Below, one piece after another: positions 14,836 through 29,043 of a stretch of 52,291 bases of DNA. The notes below the pieces were generated by a model. It was not told the origin of the DNA, did not search any database, and was given only the letters and a program-made list of their open reading frames with translations. Origin of the DNA: Lachnospiraceae bacterium. GTDB lineage: Bacteria > Bacillota > Clostridia > Lachnospirales > Lachnospiraceae. A program made the translations under genes and the position numbers. The stretch spans positions 1 through 52,291 of the forward strand of contig JAFYZH010000046.1 of NCBI GenBank assembly GCA_017548765.1, given 5' to 3'. The first letter of the stretch is position 1. Every line of letters begins with the position of its first letter.

Positions 14836-14858
14836 GCGTGCCCGAAGGGATTCGAACC
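14836..14858. repeat. attL: 23-bp copy of the tRNA-Arg 3' end
   Basis: Identical over 23 bases to 28969-28991, which covers the last half of the T-arm, the acceptor 3' strand and the discriminator of tRNA-Arg(UCU). The match stops sharply on both sides. This is the junction distal to the tRNA, created by integration. Confidence 0.92.
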
Positions 14859-14861
14859 GTA

Positions 14862-16196
14862 CTAACGCGTTTCGAAATCCCTGTTTTTCGGCTTGGAGCG
14901 TGTTTTGTTTGGGGTTACCTGGGTTACCTGATTCACCATGGGCTTGAAGATGCTGTTGATCTTGTCTACATTGTCCTCGGAGCCCCGATGATAGTAGTAA
15001 TGTTCACGGGTTACCTGTGCGTCCACATGCCCCATTTGCTTGATGATTGCCTTCTCGGTAAGGAGTCCGGCATCCCAAAGAATGGTAGCATACGTCTTTC
15101 GGATCTTGTGAAGACTCCGTTTCGGAATTCCGACATACTTGCAGATCCGAAACAGTTTTTTCGAAAACGCGTCACCAATCAGTCGGTGGTCACCGTACAT
15201 GAAAAGATACTCACCGTTGGGATTGAGAAGCCGGATCCTTTTGACGATTTCCAACGCTTCATCCGGTATTGCTATCCTTCTGTACCCGGCTTTTCCTTTC
15301 GTGTGCTCCCTTACGATATAATCGTATCCGTCATGATCCTCACTTTTGTGTCTCGTCTCAGTCCGGCGCACATGCAGCTCATTTCCGACAAAGTCTGTGA
15401 ACTTGAGCGTTGCCAATTCACCGGCCCGAAGCCCTGTGTAGAAATCCAGAAGGATCCCCAGGTTGGAAAGGGATGATAAATTCGCCGGAGAAGATGTGAT
15501 CCAGTCTGCGATCTTTCGGATCTCATCATCCGTGAATATCTGTTCCTCATCTTTTACGATCACCTTGCGAAAGATGGTCTTCGGAAGGTGAAAGTCTCCG
15601 AAAAAGGATGAAATACTGAAAGAGGTGTATTTCTTTTCCTTTGCAAACCCGAATAACCCGATCAAAATTCCTTTCAGACTGCTCCATGCTTTTGCAGTCA
15701 GTTGATGATCATGGATCGTGCTTTTGATAAAAGGGATCAGTATATCCTCGTTGACATACTGAATGTCCTTATTCTCCAGAGAAGTCCCGCCGATAAACCG
15801 CTCAAATTCACTACGGGTTTTGTCTATGGTCCCCAGCTCCACTTCTCCGTACGTTATTCGTTCCTTGATCCATTCTTCAAACACATCCCGGATGGTAGGT
15901 CTCTCTGCCATCTGCTTATAGTGGGCAATGATGCGCTTTTCCAATGCCTCACGGGTTGTTGCATGGTGCAGACGGTACTTTCCGTCTGACCCCTTTACTT
16001 TAGTGTAGAAGTCACCATCCTTCCCTTGCCAGATCGACCGATTGTGCATCTCTAGATATTTTCTGTCTTTTTCCATCTCGTACTCTTTGTGAGAGCCCTT
16101 CAGGAACATACTACCATGCTCGGCCAGATATTTCAAGAAATTCGGATCACTTTGCAGTAATTCAAGTGTTTCATTTTCTGTTGTTGTACTCATCAT
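14862..16196 (-). CDS. Tyrosine recombinase / integrase of the tRNA-Arg element
   Basis: A 444-residue site-specific recombinase. The C-terminal catalytic domain shows the conserved residues: Arg in YTGLRAGELATLKF, HKIRKTYATILWDAG (His-x-x-Arg), the GHVD histidine and the tyrosine nucleophile in THYYYH-like REHYYYH. The middle part (about 105-200) is a SAM-like core-binding domain (IRDVFEEWIKERITYGEVELG), and the N-terminus looks like an arm-binding domain. It catalyses integration and probably excision of the element at the tRNA-Arg site; the gene ends 4 bases from attL, as expected for such elements. It follows the RepA-like gene by 108 bases. No separate excisionase is seen. Confidence 0.94.
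   Translation of the reverse strand: MMSTTTENETLELLQSDPNFLKYLAEHGSMFLKGSHKEYEMEKDRKYLEMHNRSIWQGKDGDFYTKVKGSDGKYRLHHATTREALEKRIIAHYKQMAERPTIRDVFEEWIKERITYGEVELGTIDKTRSEFERFIGGTSLENKDIQYVNEDILIPFIKSTIHDHQLTAKAWSSLKGILIGLFGFAKEKKYTSFSISSFFGDFHLPKTIFRKVIVKDEEQIFTDDEIRKIADWITSSPANLSSLSNLGILLDFYTGLRAGELATLKFTDFVGNELHVRRTETRHKSEDHDGYDYIVREHTKGKAGYRRIAIPDEALEIVKRIRLLNPNGEYLFMYGDHRLIGDAFSKKLFRICKYVGIPKRSLHKIRKTYATILWDAGLLTEKAIIKQMGHVDAQVTREHYYYHRGSEDNVDKINSIFKPMVNQVTQVTPNKTRSKPKNRDFETR
14913..15015. repeat. Repeated GGTTACC motifs near attL (possible arm-type sites)
   Basis: GGTTACC occurs at 14913-14919, 14922-14928 and 15009-15015, within the integrase coding end. Two more copies lie close to attR (28857-28863, 28869-28875). 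Lambda- and Tn916-type integrases bind short direct repeats near both ends, so these are candidate arm sites; the left copies also encode protein, so this is tentative. Confidence 0.35.
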
Positions 16197-16207
16197 TCAA
16201 AGAAGGA

Positions 16208-16231
16208 ACCTGCAGGTTTACGTGGCCACGT
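16208..16231. other. Two adjacent palindromes upstream of the integrase
   Basis: ACCTGCAGGT (16208-16217) and ACGTGGCCACGT (16220-16231) are perfect palindromes in the 108-bp gap between the RepA-like and integrase genes. They may bind a regulator or form a structured leader; no function is recognised. Confidence 0.4.
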
Positions 16232-16304
16232 CCTATGCCTCCTTCCTTTGGTGTTTTGTCGACCTTTACAGTCTAACTTGATGAAACTGACGCCATTCGG
16301 CTGA

Positions 16305-17513
16305 TCAGGCCGAAAACGGGTTATCATCATCATTATCATCAATAGGTATCCAACCGACCGACGAGACTTCTTCTGTCCCTGGTGACGGTAGTGACGATGG
16401 TGACGGTCTCAGAGGGAACGAAAGCTGACCGTCACGACCTGCCATCATAGTCATATACAATTCCTGATACGTTTCTTTTGCGACGGGTGACGATTGGTTC
16501 TCGTCCCCCACAGTAGCGTCATAACCGTCACTATCGTCACTTTCCCGCCACATGTTGATCACCCGGCCTTTGTTGCTCCGATGTGATTCGTAATGAAGCC
16601 CGAGAGGTTTTAATTCAGCTTCGTAGTATTTGGTAAGATACCTGCTCACCACGTTCGGCTGCAGATCCTTTACGTCCAACTCCTTCACGAAGTCCGTCAT
16701 CAGACCGTTGAACGAATAATTCGAAAGAAAGTACTCAGCGATGCGGTAGATCGCTATCGGGATTTCATTCTTTCTCAGAAGCTTTGGATCCAGTTCCTCC
16801 GTGACGATCCATACGTTATGATCCATCTTCATATGAATGACCCGTTCCTCAATGTCACGACCGGTGATTGAGAGGATCGCCTCATCACTGAAATGATTTT
16901 CTTTTTGAAGGACCATCAGCGTATCTGCAACTCCGGCGATGCCTGTGGAGCCTGTGATGTTTTGAAATACGTTTGACCCATCCCTTTCCTTTCTGGTATG
17001 GTGCACCAAGAAAATGCAGATCCTGTGTTCATCGGCGATCTGCTTCAATGCGCCAAGATCCTGATAATCCTTCGCATAGGCATTTAACTTAGCCGAAACG
17101 TTCTCTCGGATCTTCTGTAACGTGTCGATAAAGATGATCCCGACCGTCGGCATCTCTTTGAGCAGCTTCTTGATCTGGCATTCCAATTCCTGACCAATCA
17201 AGCCGCAACAGAAACCTATGTGAAGATTCGCCGGAGGATCATCCGTGAGCAGCTGCATCCGATCCTGGATCCTCCAATCTCGGTCTTCTAGCGCCAGATA
17301 GACAACGTCCGTTTTCTTTGTAGGTATCCCCCATACCGGTTCGCCTTTCGCGATCTTAATACTAAGCCAGAGCACCAGCCAGCTTTTTCCAATCTTGGAG
17401 TCCCCGGACAGGATCGCAAGTCCTGAACAGAGGATACCCTCGATCAGCATCTCCGGATGAGGAAGCGGTTTGTAGTAAAGATTGTCCGCATTGATCAGTT
17501 CAAGCGGTTTCAT
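16305..17513 (-). CDS. RepA-like P-loop ATPase (AAA_25 type), probable replication helicase
   Basis: A 402-residue protein. Walker A is GDSKIGKS at residues 37-44, Walker B is VGIIFIDTLQ, followed by IFLVHHTRKE, the pattern of hexameric RepA/DnaB-like helicases of plasmids and integrated elements. The C-terminal third contains a putative winged-helix segment (LMTDFVKELDVKDLQPNVVSRYLTKYYE) and ends in an acidic tail. The likely role is unwinding the element's origin after excision. The ATG at 17511-17513 was chosen because AGGAGG stands 9 bases upstream; an ATG two codons earlier is only 3 bases from it. It is transcribed towards the integrase and divergently from the XRE repressor. Confidence 0.82.
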   Translation of the reverse strand: MKPLELINADNLYYKPLPHPEMLIEGILCSGLAILSGDSKIGKSWLVLWLSIKIAKGEPVWGIPTKKTDVVYLALEDRDWRIQDRMQLLTDDPPANLHIGFCCGLIGQELECQIKKLLKEMPTVGIIFIDTLQKIRENVSAKLNAYAKDYQDLGALKQIADEHRICIFLVHHTRKERDGSNVFQNITGSTGIAGVADTLMVLQKENHFSDEAILSITGRDIEERVIHMKMDHNVWIVTEELDPKLLRKNEIPIAIYRIAEYFLSNYSFNGLMTDFVKELDVKDLQPNVVSRYLTKYYEAELKPLGLHYESHRSNKGRVINMWRESDDSDGYDATVGDENQSSPVAKETYQELYMTMMAGRDGQLSFPLRPSPSSLPSPGTEEVSSVGWIPIDDNDDDNPFSA

Positions 17514-17570
17514 TTGCATATACCTCCTTTTGGGTTTTTAATTCCGATCCCTTCTGTTCAGTGGGAAAAC

Positions 17571-17666
17571 AAAAAGACCGGGATCTACATAACGGTACAC
17601 TCAGAAGACCATCTCCGATTTCTCGGATACAGCCTTTTCTAAATGTTACGGCTATGTAAATCCCGG
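17571..17666 (-). ncRNA. Structured leader or small RNA upstream of the RepA-like gene
   Basis: On the minus strand a 14-bp closing stem with one mismatch (CCGGGATTTACATA at 17653-17666 with TATGTAGATCCCGG at 17578-17591) encloses about 60 bases, including a TCCGA/TCGGA hairpin, and is followed by TCTTTTTGTTTT. This has the form of a complex terminator or attenuator about 60 bases before the RepA-like start, as in plasmids that control Rep synthesis. It could instead be an origin structure. Confidence 0.5.
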
Positions 17667-17823
17667 CCTAACAGCAATATAGCTGATGCCGTGACCGGCT
17701 GCGAAGAATACACTTGCAGTCAATATGTTCTCGGTCCAATCAAATACATTCGAACCGGTTCAGGAGAACCCGCAACAACTTTTCTACGGATCCTCACGTC
17801 TCCTTCGAGGCGCTTCGTTCAAG

Positions 17824-17899
17824 AGTTCATCTTTGAACTGATTACAGTATATCAGTTCATTTTCGTTCTGTCAATAGGTTTTTGTTTCATTTCTGAACT
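17824..17899. promoter_or_regulatory. AGTTCA/TGAACT operator cluster before the XRE gene
   Basis: AGTTCA-4-TGAACT forms a perfect inverted repeat at 17824-17839; further half-sites lie at 17854-17859 (AGTTCA) and 17894-17899 (TGAACT). They stand just upstream of, or overlap, the -35 region of the XRE gene, as expected for operators of its own product in the divergent rep/XRE region. Confidence 0.65.
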
Positions 17900-17943: not shown

Positions 17944-18507
17944 ATGCTTGATTCCTTTGAGGCGACATTAGGCGAACGGATCCGATATTACAGAAAGAGA
18001 AAAGGCATGACCCAGAAGCAACTTGCAGATCTCTGCCAGATCACGGAGCCTGCCATCCGCAATTACGAACTTGATAACCGCATTCCTGGATATGACACAT
18101 TGAACACGATCGCATCGGCACTTGACGTGAATTACTTCACTCTAGCTGAACCGGATCTCTCTTCTCTTCCCGGAGCAATGCACGTACTATTCCGCATGGA
18201 GTATGCTCATGGGCTAACGCCAAAAGAAATAGACGGTAAGGCCGTGTTAATGATCGATAAACAGAATCAAAACGCTAAGGATGATCTCTTTCAGCAGATG
18301 ATGAACAACTGGCTGAAGGCAAGAAAAAGATTCGGCAGCGGGGAATGGACGGAGAAACAGTACGAAGACTGGCTGATCCAATACCCCACTGTTTTACCAC
18401 ACGACCCGGTCGAAGAAAGTAATAAAGTTGATAACCGGGACGTGACACGATCGACAAAAAAGAAACATCCCAGAAAAAAATCAAAGAGATCATTAACAGA
18501 TCAATAG
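17944..18507 (+). CDS. XRE-family helix-turn-helix repressor of the element
   Basis: A 187-residue protein. Residues about 9-66 are an HTH_3 domain (LGERIRYYRKRKGMTQKQLA, then ITEPAIRNYELDNRIPGYDTLNTIASALDV). The C-terminal 120 residues have no recognised fold and end in a very basic tail (TKKKHPRKKSKR). It is the only plus-strand gene in the left half of the element and stands divergent to the rep-int operon, so it probably represses it and itself through the AGTTCA/TGAACT sites. A truncated second copy of its 3' end lies at 24774-24917. Confidence 0.85.
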   Translation: MLDSFEATLGERIRYYRKRKGMTQKQLADLCQITEPAIRNYELDNRIPGYDTLNTIASALDVNYFTLAEPDLSSLPGAMHVLFRMEYAHGLTPKEIDGKAVLMIDKQNQNAKDDLFQQMMNNWLKARKRFGSGEWTEKQYEDWLIQYPTVLPHDPVEESNKVDNRDVTRSTKKKHPRKKSKRSLTDQ

Positions 18508-18572
18508 AAACACAAAAGCACCCAAAAGAGCATTTTCTCTTCGGGTGCTTTTCGTCCACTGTTACATCCTCA
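18410..18572. repeat. Cargo-boundary repeat, copy A (3' end of XRE gene, terminator, flank)
   Basis: This segment contains the last third of the XRE gene, its terminator and the following 20 bases. The part from 18537 to 18572 is repeated exactly at 22815-22850; the part from 18410 to about 18550 is repeated with changes at 24774-24917. Confidence 0.85.
18514..18552. terminator. Bidirectional terminator after the XRE gene
   Basis: AAAAGCACCC pairs with GGGTGCTTTT around an inner AAGAG/CTCTT stem. T-rich and A-rich flanks let it act for the XRE gene and for the convergent lipoprotein operon. Confidence 0.8.
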
Positions 18573-18629
18573 TGGCCTCGGGGCTTTTAAAAATTCCTAT
18601 GTTTGAATCTATGCCATACTTGACTTAGT

Positions 18630-19901
18630 TCAGTTCTCCTGTTCCATACATATTGCATTATCAAAATTCCCATTCCAAAAATCCGCGGACGAAATGTAGT
18701 ACAATTGGCCATTATTCTTCAGATTCTTAGCATAATAACTATCTCCCACAGCCGCGATAGGATAGAACTGATCATCGCTGATATCCGCTGAATTCAACAT
18801 CTTATCCTCTACCGGATCATACAGATAATACATGTTTTTCCCGTCCGCATAGTACTGGGCAAATATATAACGATCACTGCGAACCAGTCGTTGAACCGAA
18901 AACGGCAATTCGTGAACCCGATTTCCGGACAGATCATATAAGGCTCCGGGTTCATCAGCGTCTGAACATTTTACGATGTAACCGTCCACAAAATCGTATC
19001 CGACGGGTCCCTGCTCCGAAATTATCAGGTTCAGTTTGCTGTTCGCTATATCGTAATCGTATACTCTTGTGAAGTCATGCTCTTTCTGTGCCTGAACATA
19101 CGCTTCCCAGTCTTCCGCAATATTGGGAAGTTGGTCATATGGGATATCAAGACCGATGCAAGTGAATAACAAATGATCATTATACTCTGCCAGATTTTGA
19201 ACCCACAGATCATAGAGATCGTCTGCGCTGAATATCTCTTCGATCTTCCCGTTATCCAAGCCCATTCGGAAAATGCCGACCTTTTGTTTCTCCAACATTT
19301 TACCGAATACCCACTGCTCCACACCGGTATTTTCGTCGGTCACTTTGAGCAATTCTGTATTACAGATGTATAAGCGAAAATAACTGTCCTCTGTATATAG
19401 TTCGTCTTTGCACGACGGAAATCCAAAATCCAATTCAGCTATGATACGACGGTTCGCCCCCTCTCGGTCTGCCCGATAAAGGATCGGATATGAAAAGAAA
19501 TAACTGCAATCATCGCGTAAGCTAAACGCTTTGCCACCGAGATCATAGGCCATACAAAACTTAGTAAGCAACTCTCCGAATTTATCACGTTTTGGACGAA
19601 TATGCTCACATCCGGGATCCAGACAGTATGGTAAGCTTTTACCTGAAGAGACGTTAAAAACATACAGCGCCTCTTTACTAAATAAAGCATGATCCTCAGA
19701 AAATACATTGCCATCAACATATAACTCTTTATCGTGCTTCTCTGTCGGTGCAACCGATATTGTAGTTTGTTGTTCGATAGTCGATGAACGAGTATTCGCG
19801 TCGGCTGTATTTGAAGAATCTTCTTCTGTATCGGAATGCTTACATCCAAAAGGAACCAGCAGGATAAATACTGTCAAAACATATGCTAAATAGCGCTTCA
19901 T
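18630..19901 (-). CDS. Lipoprotein with probable beta-propeller fold
   Basis: A 423-residue exported lipoprotein: the signal peptide ends in the lipobox LVPFGC with the lipidated Cys at residue 20, followed by a Ser/Thr-rich linker to about residue 55. The rest carries repeated strands of the type LYVFNVSSGKSLPYC, then CEHIRPKRDKFGE, and several Asp/Tyr-rich segments, resembling the propeller-like lipoproteins frequent in Lachnospiraceae; the fold is inferred. It should face outward from the membrane. Its start overlaps the stop of the upstream solute-binding lipoprotein gene by 4 bases, so they are coupled. The function is unknown. Confidence 0.68.
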   Translation of the reverse strand: MKRYLAYVLTVFILLVPFGCKHSDTEEDSSNTADANTRSSTIEQQTTISVAPTEKHDKELYVDGNVFSEDHALFSKEALYVFNVSSGKSLPYCLDPGCEHIRPKRDKFGELLTKFCMAYDLGGKAFSLRDDCSYFFSYPILYRADREGANRRIIAELDFGFPSCKDELYTEDSYFRLYICNTELLKVTDENTGVEQWVFGKMLEKQKVGIFRMGLDNGKIEEIFSADDLYDLWVQNLAEYNDHLLFTCIGLDIPYDQLPNIAEDWEAYVQAQKEHDFTRVYDYDIANSKLNLIISEQGPVGYDFVDGYIVKCSDADEPGALYDLSGNRVHELPFSVQRLVRSDRYIFAQYYADGKNMYYLYDPVEDKMLNSADISDDQFYPIAAVGDSYYAKNLKNNGQLYYISSADFWNGNFDNAICMEQEN

Positions 19902-21340
19902 GAAGCTCCTTTCGACTGATAATATGCATCAAGCTGTTTATTTAATTCTTCGATCAATTCTTGATATTGGGGTGCTTCCATCTCCTCAAGAATCGCATCC
20001 ACATCATATTCATCATTTATCATCCATCGATACGTCTTGATTTCCTCATCATATGCATACACCAATATATCCTTGAATAATTTCGTATATGGATATTCCA
20101 AAAAAGCCGCTTTCATCTCATCTGACAGTTGCGGAATAAAATCATGTACTTCGCCGACTTCGATCTGGGAAAGTAGTTCCCTTCGTTTGGCGATCTTCTC
20201 CTTTCCTTCCAACGCCGGAAGGAGATATTCCTGAATGTCAGGATCCGTGTAACAAACAGCAAGGATCTTGAATGCCAGATCTTTCTGTTCTGATTTCTTT
20301 GAGATACCATAAGACATATTCAGATTCATGTATGCGGATGTTTTCTGCAAAGGGATTTCAACGTATCCCGGCAACTCAGATCTTCCACTTTGGATGATCG
20401 CGAAGGTACGATCTGTGGATACGTCTTCCATTACCGGATAAGATAGCACACCATTTCGAACATCCTCCGCCATGACAGATATCAAATCTCTTAGTTCTTT
20501 TTCTTCGGAAAGGTCTACAAAACGCTTGCGTTGCAGATCGAAGGGAATACTGTATAAGTATCTACTATAATCCGTAAAAGCCTCCAAGAGATCTAAACTT
20601 TGAAGTATGATCATCTTATCTTTCTGCCCTGATCGATCATATATCTCCCTAAACATCTCGTACGAACCATCATAATCTGAAAACAGATCAGCATGATCCT
20701 CCGGCACATACATATATTTTGATAATCCTATGGACGTCGAAGGACTGACCGTAAGCGGTATAGCATATACATTTCCGCTCACAGTTGTAAATGCCCACTC
20801 ATAAGGAGTAAAGAAATCCTTCAACGCTCGTCCATCATCGGAATTCAGATAGTCTGAAAGAGGAACATACCTCTCCTGAACGAAATCCATAGCCTTAAAC
20901 ACATCATAATTCCAACTTCCCGTGAACAATACATCGAAAGGCGGATTTTCCGACTCATACTTCTCCAACCATGGAATCCTATCCTCAATTTTAAAAGCAC
21001 CGGTACTGACAAACTGGATCTCACAATCGTACCCCTTCTCCATGAGCAACCGATTGATCTGCTTCTGTCCTTCTAAATTCGGAACGCCATAGGACCCCAA
21101 CTCCCAAGTAATATGATTGCCGGCGGCCGGATAATCAACAGTTTCCGTCGATGCGATTATTTCTGCCTGCCCGGCTTTTGTCACTGCATCACTACTCTCT
21201 ACCGACGTATCCGCAGAACTATGAAGCTCAGAAGATACCGAACTATGAGGTTCAGAAGATACGGTGGAATCCTCAGAAGCGCATCCAAATAAAGCAATTG
21301 AAAATATAGAAAATATTACCAAACCTATTATCCTTCTCAT
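19898..21340 (-). CDS. Extracellular solute-binding lipoprotein (family 1-like)
   Basis: A 480-residue lipoprotein with a lipobox ALFGC (Cys20) and a Ser-rich linker. The body resembles sugar-type ABC solute-binding proteins: NPPFDVLFTGSWNYDVFKAMDFV, VSGNVYAIPLTVSPSTSIGLSKYMY and a C-terminal helix-rich lobe with AFKILAVCYTDPDIQEYL. The start was placed at the ATG at 21338-21340 because AGGAGG lies 9 bases upstream. No ABC permease or ATPase is nearby, so it is an orphan binding protein, perhaps acting as a sensor or decoy with the coupled downstream lipoprotein. It is part of the element's first cargo block. Confidence 0.75.
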   Translation of the reverse strand: MRRIIGLVIFSIFSIALFGCASEDSTVSSEPHSSVSSELHSSADTSVESSDAVTKAGQAEIIASTETVDYPAAGNHITWELGSYGVPNLEGQKQINRLLMEKGYDCEIQFVSTGAFKIEDRIPWLEKYESENPPFDVLFTGSWNYDVFKAMDFVQERYVPLSDYLNSDDGRALKDFFTPYEWAFTTVSGNVYAIPLTVSPSTSIGLSKYMYVPEDHADLFSDYDGSYEMFREIYDRSGQKDKMIILQSLDLLEAFTDYSRYLYSIPFDLQRKRFVDLSEEKELRDLISVMAEDVRNGVLSYPVMEDVSTDRTFAIIQSGRSELPGYVEIPLQKTSAYMNLNMSYGISKKSEQKDLAFKILAVCYTDPDIQEYLLPALEGKEKIAKRRELLSQIEVGEVHDFIPQLSDEMKAAFLEYPYTKLFKDILVYAYDEEIKTYRWMINDEYDVDAILEEMEAPQYQELIEELNKQLDAYYQSKGAS

Positions 21341-21417
21341 CTCAGGCTTCCTCCTGGCTAACATAAATATCGGGATTGATCCCCATCAATCCCGATACAA
21401 CAAAAATCAAGACCTTA

Positions 21418-21840
21418 TTACGGAATTGTCACTAAGCTAGGGACATAGAAATCCACTTGCTGATAATAGGCGTGGTGCGTTGACTCTGCTCTGTAAAATC
21501 TAAAATTATTACTGGGTACATTCATATGATAATTGCAACCATATTGCCCTACGGTGCCGCCATAATAGGATGCATCAACACCAATGTCCGGTCCGTCTAC
21601 ACCAAGATAATAAAATGTAGCCGAAACTGAAGTAGATGTGCCATACTGAGATCCTGATATTGTAGTCTCCGCCTCAGCGTACTTACGATCTTCTGATATC
21701 TTGTTTCTAGCCACAACGTGGCAGTTCCCAATGTAGCCTTCCTGCGAAGACACATAATCATCAGCAAATACAACACATACCTGAACCGCAAAAACCAAAG
21801 CCATGCATAAAAGTGTAACCATTTTCTTCTTTCTTGACAT
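21418..21840 (-). CDS. Small secreted protein of unknown family
   Basis: A 140-residue protein with a basic N-terminus, a hydrophobic stretch (VTLLCMALVFAVQVCVVFA) and a likely signal peptidase site after about residue 26. The mature part of about 114 residues is rich in Tyr, Ser and Gly, has few charges and two cysteines, and suggests a beta-rich fold. It is not anchored. It precedes the two lipoprotein genes with 78 bases between, in one orientation, and has an AAGGAGG site. I do not recognise the family. Confidence 0.7.
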   Translation of the reverse strand: MSRKKKMVTLLCMALVFAVQVCVVFADDYVSSQEGYIGNCHVVARNKISEDRKYAEAETTISGSQYGTSTSVSATFYYLGVDGPDIGVDASYYGGTVGQYGCNYHMNVPSNNFRFYRAESTHHAYYQQVDFYVPSLVTIP

Positions 21841-22087: not shown

Positions 22088-22377
22088 CTACTCGACGGTC
22101 CATTCGATATAATTGTATTGCATCACATCATCCGAAAACTTCATTCCGAGTTTTTGATAAAAACGGAACTGCGTTTTCATTTGCGATCAGATAAACTGCT
22201 CTGCCTTTTTCGCCCCCTGCCAGTTCGTGAGCCTGCTTCATCATCTTCGTAGCTATGCCACGTCTCTCATAGTTCCGATCGACACCCAAATCGGTGACAT
22301 AAAGCCAGTAGCAGTAATCCGTAAGCCCAAAAAGGATACCTACGATATCACTATCCCGGCTTGCTTTAGCTGTCAGT
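22088..22377 (-). pseudogene. GNAT acetyltransferase remnant (5'-truncated, frameshifted)
   Basis: The minus strand encodes the C-terminal part of an acetyltransferase: GLTDYCYWLYVTDLGVDRNY, then ERRGIATKMMKQA (motif A) and NENAVPF. The frame then breaks in a run of five A on the plus strand (22159-22163); after dropping one base it resumes as YQKLGMKFSDDV and ends WTVE-stop at 22088. A stop codon interrupts the frame upstream and the first half of the domain is missing, where the flavodoxin gene ends. It is therefore a dead fragment. Confidence 0.82.
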
Positions 22378-22388
22378 TTATACCGACA

Positions 22389-22796
22389 CTAAATGTATTG
22401 TCTCGCAAACTCGACCGCAGCAGCGATATCCTCCTCATTTGGTCTGCCCTTATGAATGCCCTTAAACTCACCTTTGCAATGGAACTCTTTCCCGTCCATG
22501 GGGATTCCGACTTTATCAGCTACTTTCTTCACCTTCTTATAGGTCGAGTTGAGCATCGCAGCAGATCCGAAATTGATGATCTTTCCGATCTTCGTTTTAT
22601 CTAGGGACGCAACAAATGCCTTTACTTCCGGATCGATTGTGAAAGCATAGTATGAATTTCCGAGGAACAGATAGTCCACTGCCTCATTGACAGGTTCGCT
22701 GATGGGAAGCGCCTCTACGCCTAACTCTTTGGCGATCGCCTCTGCAAGTCTTTTCGTGTTTCCGGTTTTGGTGTAATACCTTACTGCAAATGTCAT
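22389..22796 (-). CDS. Flavodoxin-like protein
   Basis: A 135-residue protein with the flavodoxin FMN phosphate loop YYTKTGNTKRLAEAIA at residues 7-22 and a following YLFLGNSYYAF loop. It is shorter than classical flavodoxins and resembles the small flavodoxin-family proteins of Clostridia. It would carry electrons as a bound-FMN protein in the cytoplasm. Its AGGAGG site is intact, but the cargo-boundary repeat B begins about 19 bases upstream, so whatever promoter it once had has been replaced. The 3' end abuts the GNAT remnant. Confidence 0.8.
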   Translation of the reverse strand: MTFAVRYYTKTGNTKRLAEAIAKELGVEALPISEPVNEAVDYLFLGNSYYAFTIDPEVKAFVASLDKTKIGKIINFGSAAMLNSTYKKVKKVADKVGIPMDGKEFHCKGEFKGIHKGRPNEEDIAAAVEFARQYI

Positions 22797-22814
22797 AAAA
22801 AAGCCTCCTTTTCA

Positions 22815-22850
22815 CTCTTCGGGTGCTTTTCGTCCACTGTTACATCCTCA
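22815..22850. repeat. Cargo-boundary repeat, copy B (36 bp)
   Basis: Identical over 36 bases to 18537-18572, the second half of the XRE terminator plus its flank. It separates the lipoprotein/flavodoxin block from the ATPase/TOPRIM-like block. Confidence 0.88.
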
Positions 22851-22948: not shown

Positions 22949-23470
22949 TTACAGTTTCAAAATATCTAACAGCGTATATTCGCCCTTTCGAATCTTTGAA
23001 ATCTCATGGTATTTCTTGATTGCTGCCAAAAGTATATCAGGATTTGAAAAATAATCCTTTACGAAGCTGTAAGACTTCACACTAGACATCCTTAGGTCTT
23101 CCTTACAGAAATCACTGGGTTTCTTTCCGGACTTCTTAAACTCTTTGTACTTATCTTCATTGAAAATAATCAACATCTCGATCTCTGGAGCCGTGATTAC
23201 ATTGATTACATCCACTTTGTGCTCGTAAGCCTTGCTAAGTTTAAAATTCTCATGTCTGGAATCAAGAATTCTAATAACCGATATCTTCTCCAAGAAACCT
23301 TTTCTTAAGTATTTCTCTTCAAATCGTTTGCCATCTCGACAGCGTATGACCTCTTCTTCCAACATTTCCTCTCGGGTGAAAATCAGAAAATCATTATCCA
23401 GAAGAATGTCCATGATAGCATTCTCAGCTGAGCCCTCACATATACAGGCCTTGTACTTCGCTAATTTCAT
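22949..23470 (-). CDS. Putative TOPRIM-like partner of the AAA ATPase
   Basis: A 173-residue protein starting with a strand and an acidic helix (YKACICEGSAENAIMDILL, residues about 5-23) that looks like the first TOPRIM glutamate motif, then ISVIRILDSRHENFKL with a possible metal-binding Asp, and VINVITAPEIEMLIIFNEDK, which fits a later TOPRIM strand. It resembles small proteins paired with ATPases in the RloA/RloB, AbiL and PARIS-type systems. It starts 9 bases after the ATPase gene with a strong AGGAGGGG site. A nuclease effector controlled by the ATPase is the likely role; catalytic residues are not certain. The hairpin GTTTTGAAAC/GTTTCAAAA overlaps its end. Confidence 0.58.
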   Translation of the reverse strand: MKLAKYKACICEGSAENAIMDILLDNDFLIFTREEMLEEEVIRCRDGKRFEEKYLRKGFLEKISVIRILDSRHENFKLSKAYEHKVDVINVITAPEIEMLIIFNEDKYKEFKKSGKKPSDFCKEDLRMSSVKSYSFVKDYFSNPDILLAAIKKYHEISKIRKGEYTLLDILKL

Positions 23471-23479: not shown

Positions 23480-24634
23480 CTACTTGAGCGCTGCAGCCAT
23501 ACTTTTCTTCAGCCGTATATACGCTTCATACATAGGAGTTGTTCCCTCCAGGAATCCGCTCTGATAGGCATCACTCTTCTTTATATCATTTCTTTTCAAA
23601 ATCGTACTCAGGTTTTCAACTGTGATCCCGTGTCTGTTCCTGATTACATAAATACTGTCATTTCTGTCATATTCATCCAATAATTCAGGATAGTGTGTTG
23701 AATAGATCAATGTACCACCGTACTTATTTAACTTGCTATCCATAAAGAAGCGCATCAATGTCGTTACAATCTCTTTATTAAAGTGGTTTTCCACCTCATC
23801 AACGACAAGGTACCCACCCTTTTGCAACACTTCCTGAGCCAGCGTAAACGTGATCATACCCTTTACAGTACCTGAAGACAAATAATTATTCAGCTGAATC
23901 GGATCATTCATTACGATCTCTTCTTTCCCCTTAAACTTCAGGCGAATGACTGACTTTTGATCCATCTCATCAAACTGCAGACTTTCAACCGTCGGATCTA
24001 AATAAGTAATGACCTCTGCCGGTATATTATCCGAAAAAGGAAGTACATTGATATTCGTGAATTGCAGCAAATTCACCACCCTCATGTTTTCCCCGGTCTT
24101 CTTATTATGTGCGATCATAATACTGACATCATCAGGCAGAAAATCCTCCTGTCCACTTCTAAGCATAACAGGTTCCTTTCCAGCAAAATCAAACAGAGCC
24201 TTACGAGTAATCACCTCAGCAGCCTGCTTCGACCATAAGTTTTCTGACAGGATACTATATACGATTCCCTCCGTCTTTGTCTGCCTCGAAGTGATCATGG
24301 TTTCAAGACGGCATATCTCCTGCTTTGTCTCTGAGTAGAAGAAGATGTTTAAAACTGCCTTTGGAGCATTTCCCAAGATATCCTTGTTTTCAATGTGATT
24401 GATCGGCTCATTATTTAGTATCCCCAGCGACAAAAGTATAACCTTTAATACTGATGTCTTTCCTGAAGCATTAATTCCTATAAAGCCATTAGCCGGATTC
24501 AAATATATATTTGAAAACAAGGGATAAAGGCTTTCTTTCTGGTCCTCTGATACTCTCTGCTGTGCATATAAGCTTATTTCAAGCTTCTCCTTAAAAAGCG
24601 GTAAACCGTCCGCTGTGATTTTCAGAAGTTTCAT
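23480..24634 (-). CDS. AAA ATPase of OLD/RloA type, probable phage-defence sensor
   Basis: A 384-residue ABC/SMC-like ATPase. Walker A GINASGKT is at residues 53-60; a long insertion follows; the C-terminal part holds GGYLVVDEVENHFNKEIV (Walker B with catalytic Glu) and LIYSTHYPELLDEYDRND (switch His), the pattern of AAA_21/OLD-like proteins. The ATG at 24632-24634 was chosen because GGAGG stands 8 bases upstream; the frame extends 37 codons further without support. It is followed by a small TOPRIM-like gene, the layout of two-gene abortive infection systems. The block is bounded by cargo repeats B and C, which supports acquisition as a unit. Confidence 0.78.
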   Translation of the reverse strand: MKLLKITADGLPLFKEKLEISLYAQQRVSEDQKESLYPLFSNIYLNPANGFIGINASGKTSVLKVILLSLGILNNEPINHIENKDILGNAPKAVLNIFFYSETKQEICRLETMITSRQTKTEGIVYSILSENLWSKQAAEVITRKALFDFAGKEPVMLRSGQEDFLPDDVSIMIAHNKKTGENMRVVNLLQFTNINVLPFSDNIPAEVITYLDPTVESLQFDEMDQKSVIRLKFKGKEEIVMNDPIQLNNYLSSGTVKGMITFTLAQEVLQKGGYLVVDEVENHFNKEIVTTLMRFFMDSKLNKYGGTLIYSTHYPELLDEYDRNDSIYVIRNRHGITVENLSTILKRNDIKKSDAYQSGFLEGTTPMYEAYIRLKKSMAAALK

Positions 24635-24773
24635 ACCAAGTGCCTCCATAATTAAAAACGGTTTTTGTGTTAATAAATCCTTCCTGCAGCAAGTATACCA
24701 CAGGCCCGGAGAATTATCAACGGGTTTTTCGTTTTTAAATCTCAATCAGTACATACATTATCACACTTTCCAA

Positions 24774-24917
24774 TCGAAGAAAGTAATATAATTGAAAACC
24801 GGAACGTGACACGATCGACAAAAAAGAAACATCCCAGGAAAAAAGCAAAGAGAACTTTGACAGATCAATAGACCCACAGAAGCACCCAAAAGAGCATTAT
24901 CTCTTCGGGTGCTTCTC
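24774..24917 (+). pseudogene. Cargo-boundary repeat copy C: 3' remnant of an XRE gene plus terminator
   Basis: Closely similar, with scattered substitutions, to the end of the XRE gene and its hairpin at 18410-18550. It keeps the reading ESN, NRNVTRSTKKKHPRKK-like and the TDQ-stop, then the GAAGCACCC/GGGTGCTTC hairpin (24879-24915). The 5' part of the gene is absent. It marks the right border of the ATPase/TOPRIM block and shows that a second, diverged XRE gene end was brought in. Confidence 0.8.
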
Positions 24918-24935: not shown

Positions 24936-25048
24936 TGCACGGCTAGTGCACATGTTTCGAAGAAACATCAGCCATCGCTCCGCGATGATTTGGTAGAGTT
25001 TGGGCGAAGCCCAACAAGCACGCGTGTAAGATGTGACCATCTACACGC
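24936..25048. other. Cluster of five consecutive hairpins, no coding
   Basis: Five tight stem-loops follow each other: TGCAC/GTGCA (24936-24950), ATGTTTC/GAAACAT (24952-24968), CATCGC/GCGATG (24973-24987), GTTTGGGC/GCCCAAC (24998-25015) and GCGTGTAAGATG/CATCTACACGC (25022-25048). Loops are 3-5 bases. No open frame of note crosses them. The block could be a structured RNA, an oriT or another single-strand processing site. Function unknown. Confidence 0.55.
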
Positions 25049-25134
25049 CCTGCTTGCCACTATATAATTGTTTCGGAAATCGGTACCGATAAATGCTGTA
25101 TTACAACTCATACATGAAATCAGTCTGCACCACG

Positions 25135-26373
25135 TCACTCCCTCAAATCTCCTGAGTAGAGGTCGTGAAAAATATAAAGAGTAGAATAATACAAGTCTTC
25201 CATGGTTTCGAGGTCGTTCAAACCAGGAGTGAGAAAAAAGCATTCATCCTCGTCCGCATCTTCATCATACTCCTTTTCCGGTTTTTGTCTCGCAGGTATC
25301 TCACGCGGAATAATAAGACATGCACTTCGAATAAACAAACACATCCAATACGCCAATTCTTCTTCCGAACAGTTTAATAAATTAAGATGTTCTATCATCC
25401 AGTCAAAAGGTGGGACATTGACATATTTAAAGTATTTTTCATTGTCCTTGTAATAGAGATACTCGTCTATATAGCTTAGCAGATCACCTTTATCAATTTG
25501 TTTAGAAATCATATCTCGCGGTACAATTGGAAAAATCCGAGGATTTACGTTTCTAAAGACTATTTTAGGATAATTCCTAGCGCGATGAAAATACTTACCA
25601 CCTTCATACAGTAAATCCTTCTCCGTTACAAGTTTCAATTCCCTTATATCATTTCTAAACACATCCAAATAATCATATTCCCAGTCTTTCTCAAACTGAA
25701 GAAGAGGAATGTTATTCAGCACCATAATAGCATTTTTCACTTCATCGTTCTGTCGCAAATATTCCGTATATAGAGAACGCACATGTTGATGGAGCGGATC
25801 AATGTAATCCGCTATTTGACACAGAATAAACAGTCTTTTCTCATTCTCATGATCAATACAAAAGTTTCGAGCAAGCTCCATGGTTTTCGAATCAAAAATC
25901 AGTTTTGTCTTCTTACTACTATGAGCTTCTTCGGGGGTGGTGCATGCAGAATGATCATTCTTTTTCGATTTATGCACCATTTTTCGGGACATCTCATCCA
26001 TATATCCACGAAACAAATCACACATCACATCTGAAAGGTTCCATATATCTGCATCGATACCGTGATCTGTTAATTCATCAGCCAGATTCTGCTGAACATG
26101 CTCCTCTAAATCGTTGATCTTCTCTATAAGAGCTTCTTCATTAAAATGTGTCTTCATATAGTAAGCATCCGTACGTGTCATTGGCCTTTCACCGTAATAC
26201 ACCTTAGATGACTTTCTGTAATTAGTTTCTTTTTGAAATGGACACGCCTCGCTTTCATCATCTACATCTTCCGATGAAGCCAAATCGCAGAAGAAATTCA
26301 TCATGAACTCCGGTACCGTCATTTCACTCATAAAGAAAGTCTTACATATTTTCAAATAGTCTTTAAATTCCAT
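25135..26373 (-). CDS. Orphan 412-residue protein of unknown function
   Basis: I do not recognise this protein. It is soluble, without signal peptide or membrane segments. Three parts can be seen: an N-terminal alpha-helical domain (about 1-150: FKDYLKICKTFFM, ERPMTRTDAYYMKTHF), a charged linker with HSACTTPEEAHSSKKTK, and a C-terminal helical region with many aromatic and acidic residues, ending with a very acidic patch (EKEYDEDADEDE). The ATG at 26371-26373 follows GAGGG by 5 bases; the frame extends upstream across the repeat GTACCCAAACGTACCCAAAC, which looks regulatory. It is divergent from the DUF4417 operon and alone on its strand. Its position among defence-like genes suggests an accessory or defence role, unproven. 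Confidence 0.65.
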   Translation of the reverse strand: MEFKDYLKICKTFFMSEMTVPEFMMNFFCDLASSEDVDDESEACPFQKETNYRKSSKVYYGERPMTRTDAYYMKTHFNEEALIEKINDLEEHVQQNLADELTDHGIDADIWNLSDVMCDLFRGYMDEMSRKMVHKSKKNDHSACTTPEEAHSSKKTKLIFDSKTMELARNFCIDHENEKRLFILCQIADYIDPLHQHVRSLYTEYLRQNDEVKNAIMVLNNIPLLQFEKDWEYDYLDVFRNDIRELKLVTEKDLLYEGGKYFHRARNYPKIVFRNVNPRIFPIVPRDMISKQIDKGDLLSYIDEYLYYKDNEKYFKYVNVPPFDWMIEHLNLLNCSEEELAYWMCLFIRSACLIIPREIPARQKPEKEYDEDADEDECFFLTPGLNDLETMEDLYYSTLYIFHDLYSGDLRE

Positions 26374-26408
26374 ATTTGCCCTCATTTTTCCCCAAAAAAC
26401 GGGGATGT

Positions 26409-26480
26409 ACCCAAACGTACCCAAACTGACGTAGGCCACTTCGGGTTTTTTGATATTCTTCAGTCATGGATTGCGCAATC
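26409..26480. promoter_or_regulatory. Divergent control region with tandem GTACCCAAAC and a 12-bp palindrome
   Basis: Two direct copies of GTACCCAAAC lie next to the start of the 412-residue gene, and the palindrome GATTGCGCAATC (26469-26480) lies 26 bases before the DUF4417 start. Both are candidate operators for the two divergent units. Confidence 0.4.
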
Positions 26481-26505: not shown

Positions 26506-27240
26506 ATGAAAAACAACTCTAATTCGCAGCCTCGTAAGGGCTGCAAAGATATGTGGAACGCTTTTATGGTTGAAGGCGCGGAATTTGTAATCGGTTCAGA
26601 TATCCCCATCTGTCCCTGTACAGCCCAAAACGTTCCAAAACAACTCATTTCCTATGTTGAAGCGAAACATCTCTGTAAACTCCACCGAGCAGAGGGCGCG
26701 GATTACCATGTGGATGCATTCGTGCATTTCTACATCGACGATCAGAAATTTGATGGTCCGCAATCCGGAATTTGGATTAAACCTTATGAAGCCCTGGAAA
26801 TCATCCGTCATTTTTCCGGTGCCATCACACCTGACTTTTCAACCAATGCGGACTTTCCGGATCCTATAAAGCGAAATAGCACCTATAAGATGCGCGCTTT
26901 CGGAAGGTGGCTCTCTGAAAACAGTCTTCAGGTTATCAATAACGTTCGCTGGGGGACCGAGGAAACCTGGGAATACTGCTTCGATGGAATTCCGTATAAC
27001 AGCATAGTTGCCATCGGAACAGTCGCAAGTGGTATTAATATTCTTGAAAATCGGCCTGATTTCGAAAAAGGCCTCTTCAAAATGGTTGAATTACTTAAGC
27101 CTCACACTATCTTGGTTTATGGTTCGGCCAACTACGAGTGTTTCAGGGCTTTATCAGCCATGGGCATACGCATTGTACCATTCATGAGCGATACAAACAT
27201 CGCTTTCTCCGTCAAGAAAGGAGGTGAAAAAAATGAGTAA
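26506..27240 (+). CDS. DUF4417 family protein
   Basis: A 244-residue protein with the features of DUF4417 (PF14386 type): a Cys-containing segment IPICPCTAQNVPKQLISYVEAK near the N-terminus, FVHFYIDDQKFDG, a WIKPYEALEIIRHFSGAITPDFS block, and a C-terminal region with NSIVAIGTVASGIN and TILVYGSANYECF. The family is found mostly in phages and mobile elements of Firmicutes; its biochemical role is unknown to me. It has a perfect AAAGGAGG site 5 bases from the ATG and is the first of a three-gene operon; the next gene begins inside its last codons (8-base overlap). Confidence 0.83.
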   Translation: MKNNSNSQPRKGCKDMWNAFMVEGAEFVIGSDIPICPCTAQNVPKQLISYVEAKHLCKLHRAEGADYHVDAFVHFYIDDQKFDGPQSGIWIKPYEALEIIRHFSGAITPDFSTNADFPDPIKRNSTYKMRAFGRWLSENSLQVINNVRWGTEETWEYCFDGIPYNSIVAIGTVASGINILENRPDFEKGLFKMVELLKPHTILVYGSANYECFRALSAMGIRIVPFMSDTNIAFSVKKGGEKNE

Positions 27241-27790
27241 ACCGGAAAGCGGTCATTTCAAGGGTACAATGGGGCAAAGAAAGTCGCATAAAAATATCTT
27301 CAACACCCCGGATAAACATGATATAATCGTTCCAGAAGGAATCGATACCCGGGAGCATCCCACAAAGTACAAGCAAATGAGTTCAAAAAAGCAGAAGGAA
27401 CTCAGAGCAAAAAGGGAAGCTCGCACCATTACAAAAGAAGAGTATAAGCGGCTTGAATGGCAAAGGCGTTTAAATATACGTCGAAAAGCAGGTATTGATG
27501 ATTTTTGGGAACGTGAGCAGGCTCTTATCGCTTTAAACCTGCCAACGACCCGCAACTGGTCAGCCGAACAAAGAGCCGATATATTAAAAGGTAAGCGGCC
27601 AAAATTCAAGGGTGTTACGATTCAAAGCCACCACAAGTACAGCGTAGCAAGATATCCTCATCTGGCAAATAATGGAAAGCTTATCTATCCGGCGACATAC
27701 TCGGAGCACTATAATCGTTGGCATGGGAAGAACTATAAAAACAGTCGACCCGGAAAACCTGTTAATCCACAATACAAAGAAGAATTCTAG
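27233..27790 (+). CDS. Putative HNH/GHH-type nuclease of the DUF4417 operon
   Basis: A 185-residue basic protein. The N-terminal 60 residues are polar and probably flexible; residues about 45-90 form a charged helix (MSSKKQKELRAKREARTITK). The C-terminal 65 residues read as a His-Me finger toxin-type nuclease core: TIQSHHKYSVARYPHLAN, IYPATYSEHYNRWHGKNY, with the paired His, the YPHLA and the EH...HG.N pattern seen in GHH/LHH toxin domains. The assignment is by eye. The ATG at 27233 follows AAAGGAGGTG by 6 bases, within the end of the DUF4417 gene, so the two are translationally coupled. No signal peptide is seen, so it probably acts inside the cell. Confidence 0.55.
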   Translation: MSKPESGHFKGTMGQRKSHKNIFNTPDKHDIIVPEGIDTREHPTKYKQMSSKKQKELRAKREARTITKEEYKRLEWQRRLNIRRKAGIDDFWEREQALIALNLPTTRNWSAEQRADILKGKRPKFKGVTIQSHHKYSVARYPHLANNGKLIYPATYSEHYNRWHGKNYKNSRPGKPVNPQYKEEF

Positions 27791-27801: not shown

Positions 27802-28158
27802 ATGGAGTATGAATTCAAACCAGGAAAGATCGGTCTCAAAATCAAATCTACACACTCGATGGCAAAATGCATAGCCATTATTCGGAAATATAACCCTATT
27901 TCAATGGGAGAGATTAAAAAGGCAATAGAATCATCTGAATACGTTTTGACATGCCCATACATAAGTCATCCGGGTGTTCGTATGATCCGCAAATGTTATG
28001 ATGAGCTGTCAAAAGCAGGCATTGAGGTTGATATCTACGAGCATGAGCGCCTCACCGACCGGGAATTATTGTCAAACCTTATAGCCTCTCATCGGCAGAC
28101 CGAGCGAGAGGTAAGAGCCCAAGTCGATGCAGAGGTTGCATCCGAGGAGAGTGACTAG
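27802..28158 (+). CDS. Small acidic protein, third gene of the DUF4417 operon
   Basis: A 118-residue soluble protein starting 11 bases after the nuclease-like gene with a good GGAGG site. Its first 75 residues have an alternating strand-helix pattern (IGLKIKSTHSMAKCIAIIRK, MGEIKKAIESSEYVLTC, GIEVDIYEHERL), compatible with a small alpha/beta fold; the last 40 residues are a highly charged helix. I do not recognise the family. Its size and position directly after a toxin-like nuclease would suit an immunity or regulatory partner, which is inference. A strong terminator follows about 150 bases downstream. Confidence 0.6.
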   Translation: MEYEFKPGKIGLKIKSTHSMAKCIAIIRKYNPISMGEIKKAIESSEYVLTCPYISHPGVRMIRKCYDELSKAGIEVDIYEHERLTDRELLSNLIASHRQTEREVRAQVDAEVASEESD

Positions 28159-28345: not shown

Positions 28346-28435
28346 TAGTGTTATTTCTTTGAAGTTATAGGAACACACAAATGCAATCTAGGGCCCTTCA
28401 TAAACAGGCCTCCTATATTATTCTGCAGTTGTATT

Positions 28436-28648
28436 CTACACGCCCTTCTTTGCGCTTCCATATTTTTCCGTTTCTTCAGCAACCATCTGCGTGGGTGCAG
28501 TACCCGTGTCGTAGACAACCTCCGACTCAAGACAGCGGGTTAATACTTTTCAACCGTTACATACTTACTCAGTCTGGCTTCTTCACACAAGGCTACCAGA
28601 CTCCCATAAATGGGCGTCTCTATACAACCATCCAGATTTATGTCGTTC
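28436..28648 (-). pseudogene. Frameshifted gene remnant at the right end of the element
   Basis: The minus strand encodes NDINLDGCIETPIYGSLVAL, then CEEARLSKYVTVEKY, after which a stop occurs; in another frame the protein-like sequence continues as LTRCLESEVVYDTG and ends EKYGSAKKGV-stop. A stop codon also precedes the first part. It looks like the C-terminal end of a lost gene broken by a one-base shift. The family is not recognised. Confidence 0.5.
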
Positions 28649-28774
28649 TATTTCGGTAGGGCCATTATTTATTTCTCTGTCAAAACAATCATCAAGAAAA
28701 GTATACAACAATCCACCACGTTTTTCAACCTTCCACCACGTTTTGAGGTATTAGGTTTTCTCCGGTTTCAGCAC

Positions 28775-28804
28775 TAAAAAAGAGCACGATTTCGTGCTCT
28801 TTTC
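28775..28804. terminator. Strong hairpin terminator facing the tRNA operon
   Basis: AAAAAAGAGCACGA pairs with TCGTGCTCTTTT. On the minus strand it reads GAGCACGAAATCGTGCTC followed by six T, about 170 bases after the tRNA-Arg gene, so it can replace the terminator displaced by integration. Confidence 0.8.
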
Positions 28805-28856
28805 GCCTGAAAAAACGATTATTTACTACGCCTTGAACGTCTTTTTCATCCTTAGG

Positions 28857-28875
28857 GGTTACCATCGAGGTTACC
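28857..28875. repeat. GGTTACC pair near attR (possible arm-type sites)
   Basis: GGTTACC at 28857-28863 and 28869-28875, noncoding, matching the copies near attL. Candidate integrase arm-binding sites. Confidence 0.38.
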
Positions 28876-28969
28876 TTTCTTTTCCACCGCATTCGAAAGG
28901 CTCTCACACTCCTTTCGCTTCATGTAGGTTTCATGCGGCTTTGCGACGTTTCATATAAGCATAAAATAG

Positions 28970-29043
<74 letters not shown>

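Follow-up and report, generated by a model that had tools for sequence, protein, structure and literature searches.

A probable integrative element with mosaic cargo at the 3' end of a tRNA-Arg(UCU) gene in a Lachnospiraceae genome

Results and Discussion

Features of the locus

The window, a stretch of 52,291 nucleotides (contig JAFYZH010000046.1, assembly GCA_017548765.1), comes from a gut bacterium and contains an intact tRNA-Arg(UCU) gene next to an island bearing an integrase, a replication-type ATPase, a divergent repressor, an inserted operon and several defence-type genes. The coordinates of all features are collected in Table 1.

Table 1. Features of the island and its borders (position 1 is the first letter of the window).
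Feature	Position	Strand	Basis
Hairpin and T-run, 11-pair terminator-like site	14782..14807	-	Terminator scan, folding
Distal attachment repeat, duplicating the tRNA-Arg 3' end	14836..14858	-	Exact 23-bp repeat
Tyrosine integrase (int), 444 aa	14862..16196	-	PF00589 7.8e-13; phrog_1 6.7e-42; alignment A1
Three GGGTTACC candidate integrase arm sites (14912, 14921, 15008) within int 3' end	14912..15015	+	Motif search
AAA_25 RepA-like ATPase, 404 aa	16305..17519	-	PF13481 3.7e-24
Very stable hairpin then U-run, leader of AAA_25-int genes	17577..17673	-	Folding z -7.88 minus, -2.95 plus
Palindrome TGAACTGAT-N8-ATCAGTTCA	17834..17859	.	Overlaps -10 of promoter-like site
XRE/Cro-type repressor, 187 aa, divergent	17944..18507	+	HTH_3 4.6e-12
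Block R: XRE 3' end and bidirectional terminator	18394..18572	+	Repeat search, folding
Inserted operon	18573..22814	-	Identity to G004:C228
Lipoprotein-like ORF of operon	18630-19901	-	Named by eye, without Pfam match
Solute-binding-like ORF of operon	19898-21364	-	Named by eye, without Pfam match
140-aa ORF of operon	21418-21840	-	ORF
Flavodoxin-like gene of operon	22389-22796	-	Sole Pfam match of operon
Exact 36-bp copy of 18537-18572	22815..22850	+	Repeat search
173-aa partner of AAA_21 ATPase, motifs EGxAExxI / RIxDS / PEIExL	22949..23470	-	Conserved neighbour
AAA_21 ATPase, AbiLi/AriA-like	23480..24745	-	PADLOC AbiLi 3e-29, AriA 1.2e-13
Block R': truncated second XRE 3' end and terminator	24758..24917	+	88% over 160 nt
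113-bp intergenic block common to G001 island	24967..25079	.	95.6% identity
434-aa protein, residues 23-172 like LmuA N-terminus	25135..26439	-	PADLOC 1.4e-13
DUF4417 protein	26506..27240	+	PF14386 3.6e-36; phrog_940 nuclease 2.6e-33
GHH-type HNH/Endo VII nuclease-toxin domain protein	27224..27790	+	PF15636 3.4e-14
118-aa protein	27802..28158	+	No Pfam match; weak HTH_IX 0.0026
Right-arm pair GGGTTACC + AGGTTACC, 95 bp from core	28856..28875	+	Motif search, comparison with congeners
Intact tRNA-Arg(UCU); last 23 bp (28969-28991) = proximal attachment repeat	28969..29043	-	ARAGORN and repeat

Boundaries and attachment repeats

The direct repeat GCGTGCCCGAAGGGATTCGAACC is present in two exact copies, is maximal at 23 bp with a mismatch on both sides, and has no further copy on either strand of the 52-kb window. 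When 141 bp spanning the left junction were searched against the whole genome (106 contigs), only two matches appeared, corresponding to the two repeat copies. ARAGORN identified a single tRNA-Arg(tct), thus confirming the intact gene and the tRNA 3'-end repeat proposed in an earlier sequence-only reading, and found nothing at 14836, so the left copy represents no recognisable second tRNA. The derivation of this copy from a decayed tRNA gene, which that reading had named as a possible objection, was therefore rejected on the basis of ARAGORN and the repeat search. The island had also been described as AT-richer, which holds on the left, where GC content is 0.597-0.606 in 1-kb intervals between 12501 and 14500 versus 0.374-0.485 in those wholly inside the island, but not on the right, where no step occurs (0.454-0.465 for 29001-31000). 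The hairpin to the left of the distal repeat probably once terminated the tRNA-Pro/Arg transcript, and the insertion would have moved it 14 kb away.

Integrase and candidate arm sites

The integrase adjoins the left repeat as had been claimed, with a gap of 3 bases instead of 4. The gene looks intact, since its reading frame is open and the family residues are conserved: the alignment (n = 12) shows no variation at R257, K300, R366, H390 and Y400 and almost none at H363, and we take these six to be the catalytic residues. The Pfam match and the conserved R, K, HxxR, H and Y bear out the integrase motifs noticed previously.

The octamer GGGTTACC occurs four times on the plus strand of the window and never on the minus strand, every copy lying at most 160 bp from an island end. 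In a random control, 24 of 18,496 pairs of 250-bp stretches had any common 8-mer at four or more copies, a frequency to be read bearing in mind that the octamer was picked post hoc, after inspection. Congeners G001 and G004 each carry two exact copies 94 bp from the same tRNA core, with differing bases between them. The arm-plus-core pattern was detected in one of 397 family genomes, its own, G001, G004 and G005 lying outside that sample. Such distribution and conservation fit candidate arm-type sites common to both ends, which would speak for the two ends being those of a single element. The earlier note had not picked up these arm-like sites, the internal repeats or the mosaic nature of the cargo.

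The tRNA-Arg site in congeners

In the five congeners compared, 14859-28968 is never retained as core, a favourable outcome for an inserted element, and the reading of this interval as chromosomal core was rejected by the comparison. The element's species is represented by one assembly. The element is absent from G003, in which 0.88 kb separate the cyclase gene from the tRNA and no integrase match was found; these 880 bp have little in common with the left flank of the window past the first 50 bp. The empty tRNA-Arg site expected in a relative was thus found as a site lacking the element, but not as a base-perfect one. About 45 bp adjoining the core are common to G000, G001, G004 and G005 and absent in G003, hence this stretch could be old chromosome and not part of the element.

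The site behaves as a hotspot, with different islands having one end in common in four of six congeners. Neither the G001 nor the G005 island contains an integrase or a second core copy, and the pieces that G001 has in common with the window lie at the right end (28757-28968 and the 113-bp block, which within the genus occurs only in G001 and the element's own genome). The retention of the right end alone in G001 and G005, together with the truncated XRE copy and the lack of a relaxase, would agree with a degraded and immobile island that kept its integrase, lost its transfer genes and now evolves as a fixed hotspot for cargo, like that of G001. We consider this possible but rather unlikely, as the integrase is open and conserved, both core copies are exact, both arm sets are present and the operon is just 3-7% diverged from a congener.

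The right-end pieces of G001 and the XRE 3'-end scar at 24758 might also indicate at least two adjacent islands, the part after 24758 coming from another element and the outer ends being a chance pair. This is very improbable, since the two ends carry an identical arm 8-mer and there is a single exact core pair; whatever its history, the island is today delimited by one att pair.

Replication-type ATPase and control region

The RepA-like ATPase and the XRE repressor, both recognised in the earlier note, were substantiated by their AAA_25 and HTH_3 matches. Relatives of the ATPase were found in 68 of the 397 genomes of the family sample, own included, and in Lachnospiraceae they adjoin relaxases or recombinases. 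An integrase of this family adjoins AAA_25 in two of 80 kept loci, with Mob_Pre between them in one; the L090/L193 element carries AAA_25, Mob_Pre and int consecutively. The leader hairpin is a candidate attenuator, for which a known Rfam identity was rejected as no Rfam match was returned; relatives of the leader DNA occur in two of 397 family genomes including its own, the other being a 31-bp match at 87%. On the minus strand, the top-scoring promoter-like site lies at 17874-17846 (score 11/12), and the palindrome is a candidate XRE operator. Promoter-like sites are not enriched in the island (35 versus 33.0 in shuffles).

Captured operon and internal repeats

The inserted operon is framed by the exact 36-bp repeat and matches the ordinary chromosome of G004 (contig C228) with 97.1% identity over 2819 columns and 92.6% over 921 columns. 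Since the core genes adjoining the G004 locus are only 84-85% identical to contig C70 of G000, the element's own genome, these values argue for a recent transfer, although core-gene identity varies and 332 bp of highly conserved sequence near infC reach 92% between G004 and G000. The G001 flavodoxin is 97.8% identical at the amino acid level and adjoins an acyltransferase with a complete terminator; window position 18575 carries half of this acyltransferase-side terminator, which indicates capture from chromosome to element. Sequence comparison thus supports a recent past movement of the operon between the G001/G004 lineage and the element. No solved structures were found by sequence for the lipoprotein-like and solute-binding-like proteins.

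An operon nearly identical to that of another genome, in a draft of 106 contigs with 1.94% contamination, might suggest that a metagenome assembly or binning chimera generated both the operon and the 36-bp repeat. However, the extra 140-aa gene, absent from the G004 copy, and the 3-7% divergence indicate that the operon is not G004 DNA, and 36 bp is short for an assembly misjoin with the usual word sizes, so we regard a chimera as most unlikely, though an assembly error at the 36-bp repeat is conceivable.

A 160-nt part of block R recurs at 24758, and the terminal 36 bp of the block are found again at 22815. The codons of R' differ from those of R by nine non-synonymous and three synonymous changes, thus showing no sign of upkeep as a working gene, and R' as a selectively kept gene was rejected. 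Its sequence may mark the seam of a sister element.

Defence-type pair and other cargo

The AAA_21 ATPase and its 173-aa partner form a conserved two-gene module, kept together in L248, L249, L251, L253 and L254 and occurring also in viral contigs and plasmids. The pair is probably a phage defence system. The partner returned no family match in Pfam, NCBIfam, PHROG or PADLOC, and no solved structures were found by sequence for either protein; from its motifs, a Toprim/RloB-type protein can be guessed. The module resembles AbiL and PARIS (AriA/AriB) in its ATPase scoring to AbiLi/AriA models and its small downstream partner gene, but differs in that the partner lacks a family match and its Toprim nature is a motif-based guess. 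In PARIS, according to PMC10568477, ATPase and Toprim are located on separate genes.

The 434-aa LmuA-like protein has no relatives in viral contigs; among plasmids, two records match 44% of its length. The GHH protein was not found in phage records, and its position suggests the 118-aa protein as a possible partner.

Nature of the element

The 14.1-kb integrative element of tRNA-Arg with boundaries at 14836 and 28991, as first proposed, is well supported, and we hold it very probable that this interval represents a single element integrated at the tRNA-Arg(UCU) 3' end, namely an IME-like, non-autonomous composite island with mosaic cargo. Pfam and PHROG revealed no relaxase, conjugation/transfer or virion domains in the main ORFs, nor were the type IV secretion and coupling protein genes that feature in ICEs recognised there, in agreement with the earlier statement that structural, relaxase and conjugation genes are lacking.

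The suggestion that the island might be a satellite gained no support. A PICI-like, repressor-controlled island packaged by a helper phage would share its size, divergent XRE repressor and promoter layout, integrase, replication-type ATPase and defence genes, and viral contigs likewise carry the ATPase-partner pair. Nevertheless, no terminase, packaging, capsid-remodelling or capsid-interference family was found among the PHROG matches to 10 ORFs, and no integrase or AAA_25 relative was confirmed in viral contigs. The satellite reading was therefore rejected as highly improbable, and the occurrence of this kind of AAA_25 protein beside relaxases and recombinases in Lachnospiraceae better fits an IME-like origin.

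The island shares with the IMEs of Bacillota at tRNA genes the tyrosine integrase, the tRNA 3'-end core, a size of 10-15 kb, XRE regulation and the RepA-like AAA_25 protein, while differing in that no relaxase was recognised; PMC5704250 allows for IMEs devoid of relaxase and describes decay to CIMEs and tandem accretion. Mosaic cargo, a sister-element seam and att-side remnants in neighbouring genomes recall CIMEs and accretion islands, but CIMEs have lost the integrase that is kept here. The IME-like island is a fresh example of an already known kind of mobile island, whose current mobility we infer; our literature search found no paper plainly about it.

In the mechanism we propose, the integrase would bring together the 23-bp core of the tRNA and an attP whose arms presumably bind it through GGGTTACC sites, three on the int side and two on the other. 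Integration would restore an intact tRNA at one end, and the 23-bp copy would remain next to int at the opposite end. The genes for AAA_25 and int would share a leader under the divergent XRE repressor, acting through the palindromic operator on the promoter, and the strong hairpin could serve as an attenuator, so that excision and replication would normally be off. Since we recognised no gene for a relaxase, transfer or packaging, the island, if mobile, must borrow a transfer system, as a relaxase-less IME would. Its mosaic cargo would derive from two or more sister elements, with the leftover XRE 3' end marking one seam, and the chromosomal operon would have been acquired from the G001/G004 lineage.

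The locus offers a fully bounded, testable integrative element in an uncultured-type Lachnospiraceae, with an attP predicted as core plus arm sites, and a sequence-dated gene capture from the chromosome of a sister species (3-7% versus 15-16% core divergence). It shows defence genes and host-type operons becoming joined on one element.

Terminator-like sites are enriched in the island (20 versus 10.7 in shuffles). At three of six inspected junctions (window 18573, window 22815 and the G005 distal end), a hairpin that a relative or the neighbouring copy has in full is reduced to its 3' half. The hotspot cargo might conceivably be swapped by a recurrent process that breaks in intrinsic-terminator loops and leaves the T-run half behind, which we consider improbable; if true, such breaks would let the element capture a foreign operon whose transcription would enter from the resident defence genes and end at the resident terminator.

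Boundaries and Occupancy of the tRNA-Arg Site

The island is a bounded insertion with a conserved integrase and shared arm-like sites, is absent from the congener G003 and contains a recent foreign operon. The 23-bp repeat proposed in the sequence-only reading was confirmed to be exact and maximal and was found only at the two borders, and the tRNA-Arg described there as intact was recovered. The island had also been called AT-richer; a clear GC step was seen at its left end only. It contains 13 main ORFs. A mechanically called ORF (MPEGIRTPDP...), which runs antisense to two of the tRNA genes, is almost certainly spurious. Outside the island, a direct-repeat array with a 74-base step was observed, which the congener G005 has too.

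Coordinates of features in the window and in viral contigs
Feature	Position	Strand	Remark
Cyclase-family gene (PF04199), FGGY kinase			other flank of island
Tyrosine integrase	14862-16196	-	
AAA_25, RepA-like ATPase	16305-17519	-	
AAA_25 leader	17577-17673	-	predicted hairpin
Promoter-like site	17874-17846	-	upstream of AAA_25
XRE repressor	17944-18507	+	
R	18394-18572		XRE 3' end and terminator
Inserted operon	18573-22814	-	
Partner, 173 aa	22949-23470	-	
AAA_21 ATPase, AbiLi/AriA-like	23480-24745	-	
R'	24758-24917		second, truncated copy
434-aa protein	25135-26439	-	N-terminal part resembles LmuA of Lamassu
tRNA-Arg(tct)	28969-29043	-	
Antisense ORF	28971-29195	+	
tRNA-Pro, tRNA-Asn			upstream of tRNA-Arg(tct)
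rplT, rpmI, infC ORFs			beyond tRNA-Pro/tRNA-Asn, upstream of tRNA-Arg; names by eye
Direct-repeat array	34882-35195		
ATPase-partner pair, L251	1750-3444		viral contig
ATPase-partner pair, L253	3058-4763		viral contig
ATPase-partner pair, L254	35-913		viral contig

The genus sample consisted of six genomes, our own included, with one draft genome per species; the tRNA/rplT region was matched to some extent in all six and the cyclase gene in four. The comparison with related genomes suggested by the earlier reading showed the element to be absent from G003, where the cyclase gene and the tRNA lie 880 bp apart on one contig, the tRNA is identical to that of the window (75/75) and the integrase has no match. 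In G001 the tRNA and the cyclase gene are separated by 10.5 kb, which are common with the window only at 28757-28968, adjoining the tRNA, and in one 113-bp block; this stretch lacks the integrase, and the sole integrase-like match of the genome is weak and on another contig. G005 carries another island of about 4.6 kb with other genes at the same tRNA (L095 376-5130), and no integrase match was found anywhere in its genome. The G004 contig stops within the tRNA and shows the right end of the island. The G002 contig stops 25 bp beyond the tRNA 3' end and is uninformative.

Integrase Relatives and Candidate Arm Sites

The integrase was matched at 1e-20 in 59 of 397 family-sample genomes, the best match reaching 44%. 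In the genome collection, integrase relatives are encoded in 152 candidate stretches, of which the best 80 were retained; AAA_25 occurred in 2 of these 80 loci, many of which are shortened by contig ends. Of the best 80 loci, 26 were scanned for tRNAs: in 13 a tRNA encoded on the other strand lies no more than 200 bp from the integrase 3' end, in 2 it lies elsewhere and in 11 it is absent. An adjacent tRNA was found at 7 of 14 family-search loci, a set overlapping the 26. None of the tRNAs beside integrase relatives in these 26 and 14 overlapping loci was a tRNA-Arg. In relatives (L129, L134-L137, L139, L143, L146-L150, L184) the intact tRNA lies beside the integrase, whereas in the window the distal copy does; the core is therefore turned relative to the integrase.

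The AAA_25 family is common (68/397 family-sample genomes at 1e-15), and the 10 neighbourhoods viewed held relaxase-like, ParB-like and serine-recombinase-like ORFs, as judged by eye. At locus L090 a Mob_Pre domain (PF01076, 4.6e-13) lies between AAA_25 and the integrase; the corresponding gap in the window is only 108 bp.

Tyrosine integrases use arm sites, and we take GGGTTACC as a candidate arm site of the island integrase. It occurs at 14912, 14921, 15008 and 28856, always on the plus strand and never on the minus strand of the window, with a one-mismatch copy at 28868. Any shared 8-mer reached the observed count of 4 in 24 of 18,496 random pairs of 250-bp stretches, and the 7-mer version its count of 5 in 24 of 18,424. 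G001 and G004 each have two exact copies (spacing 12 and 13 bp; 94 bp from the core) separated by differing bases. G005, which has about 45 core-adjoining bp in common, shows by eye a different repeat pair at the same position, TTTGTACTC twice.

Proposed Regulation of AAA_25

The best minus-strand promoter-like site of the island (11/12) is overlapped by a palindrome with 9-bp arms. Promoter-like sites in general show no enrichment in the island (35 vs 33.0 in shuffles). The leader is predicted to form an extremely stable hairpin (about 97 nt) with the U-run UUUUUGUUUU after it, with a folding energy of -83.6 kcal/mol over 201 nt (z -7.88; 0/200 shuffles equally good) and no match in Rfam. The opposite strand gave z -2.95. 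This asymmetry stems from numerous G-U pairs and speaks for a minus-strand RNA, which may be an attenuator. In the element as a whole, the integrase would bind the arm sites, XRE would act as repressor, the hairpin would attenuate, AAA_25 would serve replication and a helper would supply transfer.

A Captured Operon and Its Junctions

In G004:C228 the operon genes, minus the 140-aa ORF, reside in ordinary chromosome next to an acyltransferase-like gene (this name, like solute-binding-like, lipoprotein-like and terminase-like, was given by eye). Identity to the island operon is 97.1% (2819 columns) and 92.6% (921 columns); the genes flanking the G004 operon are 84-85% identical to our genome's own copy on G000:C70. 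The G001 flavodoxin gene (97.8% aa) directly adjoins the same acyltransferase-like gene, and in G002 a counterpart of the 140-aa ORF (83.6% identity) lies upstream of the solute-binding-like and lipoprotein-like genes, whose amino acid identities are 76% and 67% in G002 and 72% and 67% in G005. Hence the genus carries this set natively, and the island copy came from the G001/G004 lineage, the donor being a relative that retained the 140-aa gene.

The operon is framed by exact 36-bp copies, each made up of the latter half of the XRE terminator plus a further 18-20 bp, and the donor terminator, as present in the window, is likewise cut in the loop. With terminator halves at the junctions, the ATPase operon could read into the captured genes, for which the XRE terminator would then mark the end. 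At 18573 and 22815 of the window and at about 5085 of L095, an intrinsic terminator is reduced to its T-run half; the other three junctions viewed (24758, the G001 distal end and the G004 insertion beside a terminator foot) showed no loop break.

R' consists of the final 38 codons of a second XRE gene, counting the stop, together with its terminator. It is 88% identical to R overall, with 15 of 114 coding bases differing, and its upstream sequence is unlike that of R (28/100). One simple reading is that two related elements lay in tandem and a deletion occurred between them. The island fits what PMC5704250 describes: IMEs that lack a relaxase, decay into CIMEs and accretion in tandem.

Probable Defence and Possible Toxin Cargo

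Four viral contigs carry the AAA_21 ATPase, accompanied in three by a 173-aa-type partner (71/83%, 57/58% and 78/82%); the fourth stops just past the ATPase gene. In L251 the pair precedes ORFs that look terminase-like by eye. Four plasmid records also carry the ATPase, and the two that were viewed each encode a 180-183-aa partner (identities of 47% and 31%). The small partner had no match in family libraries, and the two genes probably form a defence module. No other Lamassu genes were recognised near the 434-aa protein. Finally, the DUF4417 and GHH nuclease-toxin ORFs overlap by 17 bp and, with a 118-aa ORF of the same set, may represent a toxin-partner set.
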